Below are positions 1,523-55,300 of a stretch of DNA of 64,000 nucleotides, piece by piece. The DNA comes from Devosia sp. (GTDB lineage Bacteria > Pseudomonadota > Alphaproteobacteria > Rhizobiales > Devosiaceae). The position numbers and the translations under genes are program-made. The stretch is taken from the NCBI RefSeq assembly GCF_017307495.1, contig NZ_JAFKHE010000013.1, forward strand, positions 62,001-126,000, in the 5' to 3' direction. Positions within the stretch are counted from its first letter, which is position 1; the number at the start of each line of letters is the position of its first letter. The notes below the pieces were generated by a model, which saw nothing but the letters and a program-made list of their open reading frames with translations, was not told the DNA's origin and made no database searches.

Positions 1523-1960
1523 TTATCGGTCTTTCACAGAAGTTGCAGTCAGGTCCCCTCGCCCCTCTGGGGAGAGGGTGGCTGGCGCGAAGCGCCAGTC
1601 GGGGGAGGGGCAGTGCCGCAAGGTCAGCAACAATGCCTGCTGCACGCCGTCGATGTTGCCCAGCACTTCATTGTTCCAGAAGCGCAGGACGGAGAAGCCC
1701 TGTTCGTTGAGATAGCGAGTCCGGCGGGCATCACTGACGGAGTCGGAATGCTGGCCGCCGTCCAACTCGACGACGAGCATTTCGTCGCGACAGACGAAGT
1801 CTGCGCAGTACGGCCCAATCGCGTACTGGCGCACGAACTTGAAGCCGTCGAGACGGCGGTCGCGCAGACGCCACCAGAGCATCTTCTCTGCGTCAGTGGC
1901 AGCTGAGCGCAACGCGCGTACGCGCTTCAGAATGCGTGGATCGCCGTGACTTCCCCTCAC
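1523..1960 (-). CDS. DUF559 (endonuclease-like) protein bounded by palindromic repeats
   Basis: The core, about residues 10-115, has LWWRLRDRRLDGFKF, IGPYCADFVC and LVVELDGGQH, the DUF559 signature. I place the start at GTG 1960, which lies inside the end of a palindromic repeat. An ATG at 2086 in the same frame would add about 40 residues made entirely of repeat-derived sequence. The C-terminal 25 residues or so are also encoded by a repeat (1554-1614). The gene is therefore a nuclease-like core with a repeat at each end. It splits a catabolic gene set whose other members are metabolic enzymes, which suggests insertion. The start codon is uncertain and the function unknown. Confidence 0.7.
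   Translation of the reverse strand: MRGSHGDPRILKRVRALRSAATDAEKMLWWRLRDRRLDGFKFVRQYAIGPYCADFVCRDEMLVVELDGGQHSDSVSDARRTRYLNEQGFSVLRFWNNEVLGNIDGVQQALLLTLRHCPSPDWRFAPATLSPEGRGDLTATSVKDR
1554..1614. repeat. REP-like palindromic element at the 3' end of a DUF559 gene
   Basis: Two adjacent hairpins are visible: CCCTCTGGGGAGAGGG, and GGCTGGCGC facing GCGCCAG. A closing GGGGAGGGGCAGT matches the right end of the elements at 1951-2060 and 18333-18441. It encodes the last part of the DUF559 frame. Confidence 0.75.
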
Positions 1961-2060
1961 CCTGACCCTCTCCCCGGAGGGGAGAGGGGACGCACTTTGC
2001 GCCGCCGGTGCTCCATCGCCCCCTCTCCCCTCCGGGGAGAAGGCTGGGGTGAGGGGCAGT
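1951..2060. repeat. Bipartite REP-like element (class 1)
   Basis: The left half runs from TTCCCCTCACCCTGACC through a hairpin CTCCCCGGAGGGGAG. After a spacer the right half has CTCCCCTCCGGGGAG and ends GGTGAGGGGCAGT. The same layout and ends recur at 18333-18441 and, with an extra block, at 55159-55300. It lies between the mmsA-type gene and the DUF559 core and supplies the DUF559 GTG start. Confidence 0.85.
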
Positions 2061-2089: not shown

Positions 2090-3586
<1,497 letters not shown>

Positions 3587-18326: not shown

Positions 18327-18332
18327 CCGGAC

Positions 18333-18441
18333 TTCCCCTCACCCTGACCCTCTCCCCAGAGGGGAGAGGGGACGCGAGACCACCGACAGTGCCACATCGC
18401 CCCCTCTCCCCTCTGGGGAGAGGGCCGGGGTGAGGGGCAGT
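18333..18441. repeat. Bipartite REP-like element (class 1)
   Basis: Its layout is the same as at 1951-2060: TTCCCCTCACCCTGACC, a hairpin CTCCCCAGAGGGGAG, a spacer of about 28 bp, a second hairpin CTCCCCTCTGGGGAG, and an end GGTGAGGGGCAGT. It separates the cupin and SDR genes and could act as a transcript-stabilising or attenuating structure. Confidence 0.85.
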
Positions 18442-33385: not shown

Positions 33386-33415
33386 CCGCCCTCCACCAGG
33401 CGGCGTATTGATCAC

Positions 33416-33605
33416 CCTACGTTGGTTCCGCAGACCCGTTCGGGCGCGCGGATCAAAAGGGAACACGGTGCGGCGTACCCATCAGGGACCAAATCCGTGG
33501 CTGCCCCCGCAACTGTGAACGGCGAGTGCCCTCCGACTATGCCACTGGTGGAAACCGGGAAGGCTGGAGAACACGAGGACCCGTGAGCCAGGAGACCTGC
33601 CGACG
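33416..33605 (+). ncRNA. Cobalamin riboswitch (AdoCbl aptamer)
   Basis: The conserved blocks are present in order: a GGTTCC-type start of the element, GGCTGCCCCCGCAACTGTGA (33519-33538), GCCACTG (33541-33547), CCGGGAAGGCTGG (33555-33567), and the B12 box AGCCAGGAGACCTGCC (33586-33601). It lies 50 bp before cbtB, so adenosylcobalamin is expected to shut down the cobalt uptake and cobW-cobN-cobO operon. Boundaries are approximate. Confidence 0.95.
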
Positions 33606-33654
33606 TGCAGCCGGGCGAAGAGCCCATTTTCATCCGCACGGAGGGTGCAGGTCT

Positions 33655-35764: not shown

Positions 35765-38700
35765 ATGCATCTTCTCGCGGCGCAAGCCGGGGCATTGCAG
35801 CAGGAGGGCGAGGCCATAGACCTCGCCCAGTCGCCGGCGGACATCGTTTTCGCCTCGGCTGCCGACAGCGAACTGATGATGCTCGCCGCCGCGGCAGACC
35901 GTGCAGGGGCCGTCGACCTCCGCCTCGCCAACCTGCTGCGCCTGAGCCACAACCTTTCGGTCGACATGTGGCTCGACCAGACCGTGCAGCACGCGCGCCT
36001 CGTCGTCCTCCGCCTGCTCGGCGGCGCATCGTACTGGCAGTACGGCGTCGACGAACTTTCTGCCCTTGCCATGCAGGGCAAGTTCCGGCTCGCCCTGCTC
36101 CCCGGCGACGCCACCCCCGACCCGATCCTGCAACAGCGCTCCACCATCGCGCCGGAAGACTGGTCGCGGCTGCACGCGCTGTTCACGGCAGGCGGACCGG
36201 ACAATGCGGATGAGTTGCTCGCAGCGTTCCACGTTTTGGCGGCTTCATCGCCTCCCTCCCCCTTGAGGGGAGGGATCGAGGGAGGGGGTGGTACGGCGAC
36301 GCACGGTCCGACCCCCACCCCCAGTGCCTCCCCTCAGGTGGGAGGGGAGCTGTCCGACCTTACCCCCAAGCCCTTCCCCCGCTTCGGCCTCTGGCACCCC
36401 GCCCAAGGCATGCTCGAGACCCTGCCGCCGTCGCCACACCCGAACGCCCCCATCCTCTTTTACCGCGCCGCCCTCGAGGGCGCCGGCACCGCCACGCTCG
36501 AAGCCCTGATCACCGAGCTCGAAGCCCAGCGCCTCAACCCCGTCCCCATCGTCGTCTCGACGCTGAAGGAGGGCGCCTGCATACGTTTCTTGCAAGCGGC
36601 CCTTGCCGCGTACCCGCCCGATGTCATCCTCAACCTCACCGGCTTTGCCCTGGGCCTCGATGGCCTCGAGGACAAGCAGAACCCCTTCGCCGGCATCGAC
36701 GCGCCGGTGATCCAGCTGATCCAGGGCGGCCGCCCCGAGCAGCAATGGGCTGATGACCTCCAGGGCCTGACGTCCAAGGACCTTGCCATGCAGGTGGTCC
36801 TGCCCGAGCTCGACGGCCGCCACGGCATGATCCTCGTCGGCCACAAGCAGGAGGCCGTCTGGCACGAGCGCACCCAATGCCCGCTCTCCGCCTACGCCCC
36901 CGACCACGCCGGCATCCGCCGCGCCGTGACGCTGGCGAGGAACTGGACGGTACTGCGCAACACGCCGCGCGCCGGGCGCAAGATTGCCATCGTCCTCGCC
37001 AACTATCCCATCCGCGACGGCCGGCTGGCGAACGGGGTCGGCTATGACGCGCCGCAATCGACGGTGGAGATTTTGCGAGCGATGGCGAGGGCAGGATATG
37101 CGGCCTCCCCCCTCCCAACCTCCCCACTTGTGGGGGGGGCTGGGAGGGGGGAGGCCACAGGCAACGATCTCATTGCCCTGCTCCAATCTGGCCCCACCAA
37201 CGCCCATCCCGAGCGCGGCACCGGCATCCCGTTTCGCGTCGCTCGCTACCGCGAACTCTTCGCCACCCTGCCGGCGAAGATCCGTTCCGAGGTCACCGCC
37301 CGCTGGGGCGATCCGTCGTCCGATCCCTTTGTCCGCGGCGACAACTTCCACCTTCCAGCCCTCGACCTCTGCAACGTCACCGTCCTCCTCCAGCCGGCCC
37401 GCGGCTACCACCTCGACGAGACTGCCAGCTATCACGACCCCGACCTCGTCCCCCCGCACGGCTACCTCGCCGCCTATCTCTGGCTGCGCCATGAGTTCGG
37501 CGCCCATGCCGTCATTCACAACGGCAAGCACGGCAATCTCGAATGGCTTCCCGGCAAGGCCGCAGCGCTCGATCCGGCCAGTTACCCCGCTGCCCTCTGG
37601 GCCGAACTGCCGCAGCTCTACCCCTTCATCGTCAACGACCCGGGCGAAGGCACCCAGGCCAAGCGCCGCACCGGCGCGGTGATCATCGACCATCTCGTCC
37701 CGCCATTGACGCGCGCCGAAACCTACGGCCCGCTCAAGGACCTCGAGGCCCTGCTCGACGAATACTACGCCGCCTCCGGCCTGGACCGCCGTCGCCTCGC
37801 CGGGCTTCGCAAGCGCATCCTTGATTTCGCCCGCGATACCCGTCTCGACCGCGACATCGGCCTCGTCCCCGACGAGACGGAATCGCTGCGCCGCATCGAC
37901 ACCTTCCTGTGCGACCTCAAGGAGGCCCAGATCCGCGATGGCCTCCACGTCTTCGGCCAATCCCCCATCGGCCGGCTGGAGCGCGACCTGATCGTGGCGC
38001 TGGCGCGCGTCCCGCGCGGCGAGGGGGCAGGCGAGGCGTCGTTGGTGCGGGCACTGGCGGATGATCTGAAGCTGGGGCTTGATCCGTTGACGGCAGACTT
38101 GGGCGCCGAATGGACTGGGCCTCTGCTCCCCTCCCCCTTGAGGGGAGGGCCCGGGGGAGGGGGTGGTGCAGTCGGCAACGAGATTTCCCTCGCGACCCCC
38201 ACGCCCCAGCCCTCCCCTCAAGGGGGAGGGGAGCCGTTCCGCACCGTCGGTGACATCGTCGAATACCTCGAAGCTCTCGCCGCTGAACTGGTGGAGGGCG
38301 GGGCCCCGGAGCCGGATTGGCACGCGACCCGTGCCGTCCTGGGAACGGTGGTGCACACCATCCGGCCGCGCCTGCGCGCCTCCGGCCCGGCCGAAACCGC
38401 CGCGCTTCTCGCCGGCCTCGACGGCCGCTTCATCGCCCCCGGCCCCTCCGGCGCGCCCTCGCGTGGACGGCTCGATGTCCTCCCCACCGGCCGCAACTTC
38501 TATTCCGTGGACAACCGTGCCGTCCCCACGCCAACCGCGTGGGAACTCGGCCGGAAATCCGCGGAGAACCTGCTGCTCCGCCATTTCCAGGATCACGGCA
38601 CGCCGCTCCGCTCGCTCGCGCTCAGCGTCTGGGGAACCGCCAACATGCGCACCGGCGGCGACGACATCGCCCAGGCCCTCGCCTTCATCGGCGCCCGCCC

Positions 38701-48575: not shown

Positions 48576-48596
48576 TGCCAGAACCTCGCACGTTTG

Positions 48597-48695
48597 CTCC
48601 CCTCCCCCCTGAGGGGAGGGGCTGGGGGTGGGGGTCCGTCGGTGATCTGGGGAGGTACCCCCTCCCTCGTTCCCTCCCCTCAAGGGGGAGGGATG
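48597..48695. repeat. Class 2 palindromic element between cobJ and cobM
   Basis: CTCCCCTCCCCCCTGAGGGG and GGGGCTGGGGGTGGGGG, a spacer, then CCCTCCCCTCAAGGGGGAGG. It has the same design as the copies inside cobN, and fills the only real gap in the cbiX-cobM operon. Confidence 0.88.
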
Positions 48696-48720
48696 CAGGG
48701 GCAGGGCCATCGAGTCAGCC

Positions 48721-49509: not shown

Positions 49510-49635
49510 AGGCCCCCTCACCCGGCGCTGCGCGCCGACCTCTCCCCCAAGGGAGAGGTGGCGGGGGGGCGCGATTGTGCCGCACCACCTCTCCCTCTGG
49601 GGGAGAGGTCGGCCGAAGGCCGGGTGAGGGGGCCT
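49510..49635. repeat. Large inverted repeat between cobM and cobK
   Basis: The outer ends AGGCCCCCTCACCCGGC and GCCGGGTGAGGGGGCCT are perfect complements. Inside are two further arms, GACCTCTCCC near 49538 and GGGAGAGGTC near 49600, each with its own local hairpin. The structure separates the convergent cobM and cobK genes and may end transcription in both directions. Confidence 0.85.
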
Positions 49636-54094: not shown

Positions 54095-54106
54095 TCGGCT
54101 CGATCG

Positions 54107-54206
54107 CCTCCCTCCCCCTTGAGGGGAGGGACCGAGGGAGGGGGTGGCCCGGTGAGCGCCGTTGGCCCCCCACCCCCAATCCCTCCCGTCAAGGGGGAGG
54201 GGAGCC
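54107..54206. repeat. Class 2 palindromic element between cobQ and cobD
   Basis: CCTCCCTCCCCCTTGAGGGG and GAGGGAGGGGGTGG, a spacer, then CCCCCCACCCCC and CCCTCCCGTCAAGGGGGAGG. Its last bases, GGAGGGGAGCC, serve as the ribosome binding site of cobD. It is the closest intergenic match to the copy at 36251-36351 in cobN. Confidence 0.9.
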
Positions 54207-55157
54207 ATGATGCACGCCCTCGTCGCTCCCCTCGCCCTGCTCATCGAGCGCCTTGTCGGCTATCCGGATTGGCTGGTGAAGCGCATCGGCCATCCCGTCA
54301 TGTGGATGGGCGGGTTGATCGCCGTGCTCGACAGGCGGCTCAACGACCGCACGCGGGGCAGGGGGGTGCTGGCCCTGGTGATCCTGCTCGGGGTGACCGC
54401 GGCGATCACCGTTCCGCTCACGGCGCTGCTGCGCCCGCTGCCCTTCGGGTTTCTCATGGAAGCGCTGCTGGCCTCGACCCTGCTGGCGCAGAAATCGCTG
54501 AATGACGCCGTGGCCTTCGTGGCTGCAGCCCTGCGCCGCTCGCTTCCCGAAGGCCGTGCCGCCGTCAGCCACATCGTCGGCCGTGATCCCGAAGCCCTCG
54601 ACGAGCCCGGCGTCGCCCGTGCCGCGATCGAAAGCCTCGCCGAGTCCACCTCCGACGCCGTCGTCGCCCCGCTGTTCTGGCTGCTGCTGTTCGGCCTGCC
54701 CGGCATCGCGCTCTACAAGGCCGTCAACACCGCCGACTCGATGATCGGCCACAAGACCGCGCGTCACCTGCAGTTCGGCTGGGCCAGCGCCCGCTTCGAC
54801 GACCTGCTGAACCTCGTTCCGGCCCGACTGAGCGCCCTGCTCATCGCCGGGGCGGCGTTCTTCGTGCCGGAGGCCAATTCCGAAGCCGCCTGGTCGACGG
54901 CGCTGCGCGATGCAAAGAAGCACGAAAGCCCCAATGCCGGCTGGCCCGAAGCGGCCATGGCCGGCGCCCTCGGTTTCGCGCTCGGCGGCCCGCGCAGCTA
55001 CGACGGCGCGCTGGTCGACCTGCCGCGCTTCGGCGAGGGCAGGGCGGACCTCGGGCCGGGGGATATCCAGCGCGCGCTGCAACTCTATCGGTCGGGCCTG
55101 AACGTGCTGCTGGTGGTCACGATGGTGCTTGCTGCCCTGGTGTGGCGGCTGGGCTGA
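54207..55157 (+). CDS. cobD: Adenosylcobinamide-phosphate synthase CobD (CbiB)
   Basis: This 316-residue integral membrane protein opens MMHALVAPLALLIERLVGYP, has HPVMWMGGLIAVLDRRLN near 25-42, ARAAIESLAESTSDAVVAPL near 140, and KAVNTADSMIGHKT near 172. Four to five membrane segments are visible. It attaches the aminopropanol arm to cobyric acid. ATG 54207 takes its ribosome site from the adjoining palindromic repeat. Confidence 0.94.
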   Translation: MMHALVAPLALLIERLVGYPDWLVKRIGHPVMWMGGLIAVLDRRLNDRTRGRGVLALVILLGVTAAITVPLTALLRPLPFGFLMEALLASTLLAQKSLNDAVAFVAAALRRSLPEGRAAVSHIVGRDPEALDEPGVARAAIESLAESTSDAVVAPLFWLLLFGLPGIALYKAVNTADSMIGHKTARHLQFGWASARFDDLLNLVPARLSALLIAGAAFFVPEANSEAAWSTALRDAKKHESPNAGWPEAAMAGALGFALGGPRSYDGALVDLPRFGEGRADLGPGDIQRALQLYRSGLNVLLVVTMVLAALVWRLG

Positions 55158-55158
55158 C

Positions 55159-55300
55159 CTTCCCCTCACCCGCCTTCGCTTCGCTCAGGCACCCTCTCCC
55201 TCAAGGGGAGAGGGAATAGCTGCGGCACCATCTTGCCCCCGGGATACCCCTCTCCCCTTGAGGGAGAGGGGTGGCGCGAAGCGCCGGGGTGAGGGGCAGG
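55159..55300. repeat. Bipartite REP-like element (class 1, extended) between cobD and cobU
   Basis: It begins TTCCCCTCACCCGCC, has CCTTCGCTTCGCTCAGG as an extra block, then hairpins CCCTCTCCCTCAAGGGGAGA and TCTCCCCTTGAGGGAGA, and ends GGGGTGAGGGGCAG. It lies between convergent genes and could terminate both. Confidence 0.85.

Follow-up and report, generated by a model that had tools for sequence, protein, structure and literature searches.

Near the start of the window, the 64,000-nucleotide stretch of a Devosia genome that was analyzed here, a gene encoding a DUF559 protein lies between mmsA and a gene for an M20-family amidohydrolase, with all three on the minus strand (Table 1). The ATG of the DUF559 open reading frame (ORF) is located 3 nt past the mmsA stop, and its stop codon 2 nt ahead of the amidohydrolase ATG. 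The DUF559 domain (Pfam PF04480, E 1.8e-36) covers positions 1619-1930, residues 53-156 of the protein, and the ORF remains open across both palindromic elements that flank this domain. The TGA stop of the amidohydrolase gene is overlapped by a plausible GTG start of a second DUF559 gene, whose only bordering element, a class 1 REPIN, lies on the 3' side (C26:61752-61922, outside the window). These coordinates agree with an earlier sequence-only reading of the window, which had placed one DUF559 gene between mmsA and the amidohydrolase gene, and another over the far end of the latter.

Table 1. Genes and palindromic elements in the window.
Feature	Position	Strand	Details
Second DUF559 gene	1-272	minus	domain ends at 243; continues beyond window start; genome C26:61932-62243
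M20-family amidohydrolase gene	270-1520	minus	
DUF559 nuclease ORF	1523-2086	minus	187 aa, ATG at 2086; Vsr/EDxHD-fold
3'-side REP	1555-1610		purine tail 1601-1610 facing gene, accessory stem-loop 1582-1598, main hairpin 1561-1578
5'-side REPIN	1948-2060		tail 1953-1962, hairpin 1966-1988, spacer, hairpin 2020-2043, tail 2046-2056
mmsA	2090-3586	minus	
Dispersed REPIN without DUF559	18330-18441		same family as 1948-2060, 46-nt core 98% identical
Cobalamin riboswitch	33406-33618	plus	RF00174, 127 bits
Class 2 (CTCCCC arm) REPIN	36240-36360		type matches REPs flanking DUF559 at C26:267561-267872
Class 2 REPIN	38115-38244		
Class 2 REPIN	48586-48706		
Dispersed class 1-like inverted pair without DUF559	49515-49631		
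Class 2 REPIN	54096-54215		
Dispersed class 1 REPIN without DUF559	55163-55296		

The 5'-side element and its copies meet the description of a REPIN, which consists of two inverted REPs with a spacer and occurs in dispersed copies. About 25 more near full-length copies were found in the genome (over 95 nt, the best 79-87% identical), and we therefore consider the flanking elements to be members of a dispersed repeat population. When folded as a single DNA strand, the REPIN gave z = -8.7 and -10 on its two strands relative to shuffled sequence, while the 3'-side REP folds less strongly (z about -3). No known RNA family from Rfam was found at the elements. A strict palindrome pattern with a 4-nt loop had no match in the window; as the loops vary, a rule based on hairpins with pyrimidine and purine arms was adopted instead. 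Two classes of elements were distinguished by their arms, class 1 with CCCTCTCCC/GGGAGAGGG and class 2 with CCCTCCCC/GGGGAGGG. All four DUF559 genes of the genome (4/4) have such polypyrimidine/polypurine palindromes (REPs) at their borders, two of them with class 1 elements on both sides, and the one at C26:267561-267872 with class 2 elements on both sides.

An AlphaFold model of the DUF559 protein (pLDDT 89) matched NGO0050 from Neisseria gonorrhoeae (PDB 3HRL), the EDxHD homing endonuclease I-Bth0305I (PDB 3R3P) and, more weakly, Vsr. Sequence profiles agreed with these fold matches, both for NGO0050, the closest solved DUF559 structure (sequence E 1e-36, fold-match identity 44%), and for I-Bth0305I (sequence E 5e-4, fold E 1e-4). 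Among 44 DUF559 proteins, residues E15, D44, E55, and D57 were invariant and H61 nearly so, and the criterion for EDxHD enzymes, a Vsr-like fold with conserved acidic and histidine residues, is met. A link between DUF559 and EDxHD has been reported in a cyanobacterium (PMC9403480). In close pairs where it could be measured, dN/dS was 0.06-0.24, indicating purifying selection. DUF559 matched no family in PADLOC, and a reading as a defense system was dropped for that reason.

REPs at the borders of DUF559 genes

A role for DUF559 in spreading or processing the palindromes, as put forward in the sequence-only reading, would have been refuted if DUF559 genes elsewhere showed no enrichment for flanking elements. 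DUF559 was searched for in 190 genomes spread over Alphaproteobacteria, and 40 loci from this sample were examined along with the 4 of this genome. A REP was counted when a hairpin composed of one pure pyrimidine arm and one pure purine arm lay at most 200 bp from the DUF559 domain. Such hairpins were present on at least one side of 39 of these 44 loci and on both sides of 24, compared with 21 and 0, respectively, of 302 control ORFs from the same regions (Fisher 1e-30 and 3e-25). The density of hairpins was 4.0 per kb in the flanks of DUF559 genes and 0.05 per kb elsewhere, an enrichment of about 80-fold, so that the refuting outcome was not met. None of 111 small-ORF controls had hairpins on both sides, and of 30 ParE toxin genes from the same genomes, only one had a hairpin on at least one side and none on both. 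The idea that small acquired genes attract REPs in general was therefore rejected.

The hairpin rule was chosen after the window had been seen, which is why later, independent sets and a test free of any motif are of importance. Of 20 beta- and gammaproteobacterial DUF559 loci, 18 had a hairpin on at least one side and 12 on both. In a separate set of 79 loci, most of them from named organisms, 74 were not cut by contig ends and could be scored, with 70 positive on at least one side and 50 on both; the four misses (Legionella twice, Binatia, and Nitrospira) showed related palindromes on inspection. Hairpins were also present at single DUF559 loci of Deinococcus (two), Synechocystis, and Sphingomonas, and related palindromes were seen on inspection at loci of Pseudanabaena and Neisseria, with one REP-like palindrome upstream of the gene in N. 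gonorrhoeae. When only the likeness of the two flanks to each other was scored, without any motif, 91 of 119 DUF559 loci exceeded the 99th percentile of random sites. The gene for YcjD, the DUF559 protein of Escherichia coli K-12, lacks such REPs, however, which counts against a general REP role. This gene (L322) adjoins sapF, has no palindromes and is possibly a domesticated case.

The REP-DUF559-REP units, or cassettes, have a regular layout. Among 189 DUF559 loci, 115 had hairpins on both sides, and the pyrimidine arm came first in 290 of 291 hairpins. The purine tail faced the gene in 111 of 135 upstream and 125 of 143 downstream elements, so that the two REPs form an inverted pair with inward tails. 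The paired REPs of one cassette were more similar to each other (0.57) than to other REPs of the same arm class (0.38), and in 49 of the 115 pairs the partner was the best match of all. Most elements lack the GTAG head, as only 33 of 286 REPs had GTAG or CTAC close to the hairpin. Cassettes such as those at L139, L150, L325, L326, L329, and L006 are often situated between catabolic, transporter, or Fe-S operon genes, and those located in operons (hpa, suf, ABC permeases) keep the spacing between stop and start codons.

In addition, the type of REP varied with the sequence of the DUF559 protein next to it. Over 176 loci, REP similarity rose with DUF559 identity (Mantel rho 0.30, 0/500). A correlation was likewise obtained for comparisons of Alphaproteobacteria with loci from outside the class (rho 0.26) and for loci of the genus alone (rho 0.50), each with 0/1000 permutations. 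On a tree of 39 DUF559 proteins from the genus and near relatives, arm class required 5 changes, against a mean of 13.5 for shuffled data. On a tree of all taxa, however, the coarse arm class was only weakly bound, with 34 changes against 43.8 when shuffled, which counts against tight matching. This poorly resolved tree requires at least 23 changes of host group, which suggests that DUF559 has been transferred between classes.

DUF559 and REPs across genomes and in relatives

The proposed link also predicts that DUF559 and REPs co-occur between genomes. Genomes were considered REP-rich if they contained three or more copies of the exact class 1 hairpin pattern, for which a reversed-pattern control was near zero, and DUF559 was called present at E below 1e-15. 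In the class sample of 190 genomes, DUF559 was detected in 30 of 34 REP-rich genomes and in 17 of the remaining 156 (p 1e-18). For 249 genomes sampled across the phylum, some of which also belong to the class sample, the counts were 37 of 47 and 24 of 202 (p 5e-19), and the non-alphaproteobacterial part alone still showed the association (p 3e-10). Overall, roughly one in three of the proteobacterial genomes sampled had a DUF559 match. REP-rich genomes lacking DUF559, the outcome that would have spoken against the link, amounted to 4 of 34 for the class and 10 of 47 across the phylum, both judged by the absence of a strong match. These do count against a role for DUF559; some are incomplete drafts, while others are near complete. 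Genomes G263, G290, G295, G386, and G432 are rich in class 1 palindromes without a strong DUF559 match.

RAYTs belong to the Y1_Tnp family (PF01797). This family was absent from the genome studied here, and among the 190 class genomes it showed no association with REP abundance (7 of 34 REP-rich genomes against 37 of 156 others, p 0.8). A RAYT or other Y1 transposase as the true driver of the REPs was thus rejected. Within the genus, 200 kb of sequence contained 1 and 0 hairpins in two genomes without DUF559, but 6-31 in four genomes with 5-11 DUF559 genes and similar GC content, although the numbers compared (2 against 4) are small.

Empty sites in relatives had been proposed as a further check, and three junctions yielded empty, REPIN-only, and REP-DUF559-REP alleles. 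In many relatives, mmsA and the M20 gene are separated by only 13-30 bp, whereas eight genomes carry REP-DUF559-REP at this junction and one (L079) retains only a REP remnant. An ABC permease junction was empty (few nt) in ten genomes, contained a REPIN only in L265 and a cassette in two genomes. Similarly, a cysS-VOC junction was empty in several genomes, contained a REPIN only in L280, a REPIN followed by a C-terminal remnant of DUF559 in L277, and a cassette in seven genomes. The DUF559 proteins of the cysS site form one clade, and the gene was therefore inherited in place there, with its REP arms changing along with it. DUF559 copies within one genome are mostly old and divergent (median about 49% identity), with few recent duplicates, unlike REPINs, which are abundant recent copies. 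Between this genome and a relative (G236), DUF559 proteins were 74-80% identical, compared with 94-96% for the mmsA, M20, and permease proteins.

No convincing target-site duplication was seen by eye at the three junctions. At the ABC permease junction, AGATGGC is found on both sides of the cassette and once in the empty site (L260 and L262), which may be a short duplication or merely a repeated start-codon context. At the mmsA-M20 junction of L080 and L081, a different REP-DUF559-REP unit seemingly lies inside the outer half of a REPIN of the L077 type, and it seems as if one cassette had replaced another.

Possible roles of DUF559

Comparison of the genomes demonstrated, at the level of sequence, that DUF559 genes are paired with REPs, that this pairing is specific to DUF559, and that REP type and protein match. 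It likewise established that the two DUF559-free congeners have almost no REPs and that alleles occur in empty, REPIN-only, and full form. We slightly favor the interpretation that these are parts of a two-part, RAYT-like system, made up of a DUF559 nuclease gene between inverted REPs and a dispersed population of REPs and REPINs of the same type; cutting of the REPs is inferred. The DUF559 protein, a predicted endonuclease with a Vsr/EDxHD fold, would recognize, and nick or cleave, the hairpins of REPs that belong to its own class, a reaction for which no cleavage data exist. Repair or copying of the cut would then place new REPs elsewhere and keep the REP population alike, with DUF559 working in trans on the dispersed REPs in the manner of RAYT transposases. 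The gene itself would mostly be inherited in place, evolving fast together with its own REP, and would occasionally be lost, leaving a REPIN behind, or gained. Sequence alone cannot tell whether DUF559 acts by copying REPs, by homing into them, or by some other mode of maintenance.

RAYTs were recognized as the agents of REPs by their inverted flanking REPs, the correlation with abundance of cognate REPs, and their fast evolution (PMC2817692). DUF559 shares with the REP-RAYT system (TnpA-REP, "REPtron") a nuclease gene between two inverted REPs and a dispersed population of cognate REPs and REPINs, as well as the features of cognate co-variation, faster evolution than its neighbors, and mostly vertical inheritance (PMC2817692). 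It differs in that the enzyme has a PD-(D/E)XK/EDxHD Vsr-like fold rather than that of an HUH Y1 transposase, and in that the palindromes have pure pyrimidine or purine arms with a purine tail, most of them without a GTAG head. By every comparative test that was run, DUF559 and its REPs thus appear to work like REP-RAYT, but they are not a member of that family, since the enzyme is non-homologous, a RAYT is absent, and the GTAG head is mostly missing. The part analogous to that of RAYTs which the sequence-only reading had suggested for DUF559 is supported by the enrichment, the co-occurrence, and the alleles, while cleavage or mobilization of the palindromes has not been shown.

DUF559 could also be a homing-type selfish gene that cuts gene-free REPs and spreads when these are repaired from REP-DUF559-REP, with the REPs serving as homology arms. 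We consider this possible but unlikely. Its closest functionally characterized structural relative, I-Bth0305I, is a homing endonuclease, the flanking REPs are placed where homology arms would be expected, the same junction can hold either a REPIN alone or REPIN-DUF559-REPIN (a REPIN alone at two junctions, in L265 and L280), and the nested arrangement in L080 and L081 would fit as well. Unlike I-Bth0305I, however, DUF559 resides in neither an intron nor an intein, but stands alone between genes, bordered by repeats that are found throughout the genome. Homing is also difficult to reconcile with the age and divergence of the DUF559 copies within a genome, where the REPINs are the abundant recent copies, with the inheritance in place of the cysS-site clade, and with REP types that change along with the gene.

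It seems doubtful that DUF559 serves the host, for example in mismatch repair, and is a mere passenger between REPs moved by another agent. DUF559 is under purifying selection and shares its fold with the Vsr mismatch endonuclease, although, unlike for Vsr, no methyltransferase was found at the DUF559 locus in the window. Vsr-like enzymes are known in mismatch repair, where they cut T:G mismatches in the motif of a cytosine methylase. VsrA of Caulobacter has been described as a DUF559 protein and Vsr-like enzyme that affects the DNA-damage response, with a phenotype tied to cytosine methylation (PMC12907096); a link of VsrA with palindromic repeats was not found in the text searched. A role in REP biology may therefore not be the whole function of DUF559. 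A passenger would not explain, however, why REP abundance follows DUF559 and not Y1/RAYT-type transposases, why REP type follows its sequence, or why ParE genes, which are likewise small and readily acquired, lack REPs.

Rather than being substrates, the palindromes might serve DUF559 expression in cis, as translation starts, as terminators, or by protecting mRNA ends. Many ORFs do read through the 3'-side REP (70 of 146), and cassettes keep the stop/start spacing of operons. The sequence-only reading had noted that the palindromes encode both termini of the protein, including a GTG start, and in the window the ORF is indeed open through both elements, with an in-frame GTG in a REP tail. Elsewhere, however, the reading frame was random relative to the downstream REP (50/48/48), and of 59 loci with a GTG in the tail, 22 had it in frame and 37 did not. 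Coding of the protein ends by REPs is therefore incidental, and a REP-encoded GTG start as a general device was ruled out. As dozens of copies of the same REPs lie away from DUF559, and as the link holds between genomes and not just at the gene, a cis-acting role is highly improbable. An artifact of GC-rich sequence or hairpin scoring can practically be dismissed: some elements do lie in GC-rich genomes and the rule was set post hoc, but the same-region, motif-free, and reversed-pattern controls, along with congeners of the same GC content without REPs, refute it.

REPs have been described in Bradyrhizobium without an enzyme (PMC5082802), and no paper tying DUF559 (COG2852, PF04480, YcjD) to palindromic repeats was found in the open-access full text searched. 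Many REP-rich genomes, including this one, contain no RAYT-type transposase. To our knowledge, RAYTs are the only agents known to spread REPs. Returning to DUF559 as a RAYT-like nuclease, we think it reasonably probable that it represents a second, RAYT-independent family of REP-directed nucleases, present in several bacterial phyla, whose members would recognize and propagate, or home into, their own polypurine/polypyrimidine palindromes, which would explain REPs without RAYTs. If this is true, DUF559, a nuclease family of unknown function, would gain both a substrate and a role, and would provide a candidate nuclease for hairpin-type DNA with ready natural pairs of enzyme and substrate, while it would become possible to test directly how a large class of bacterial repeats arose.
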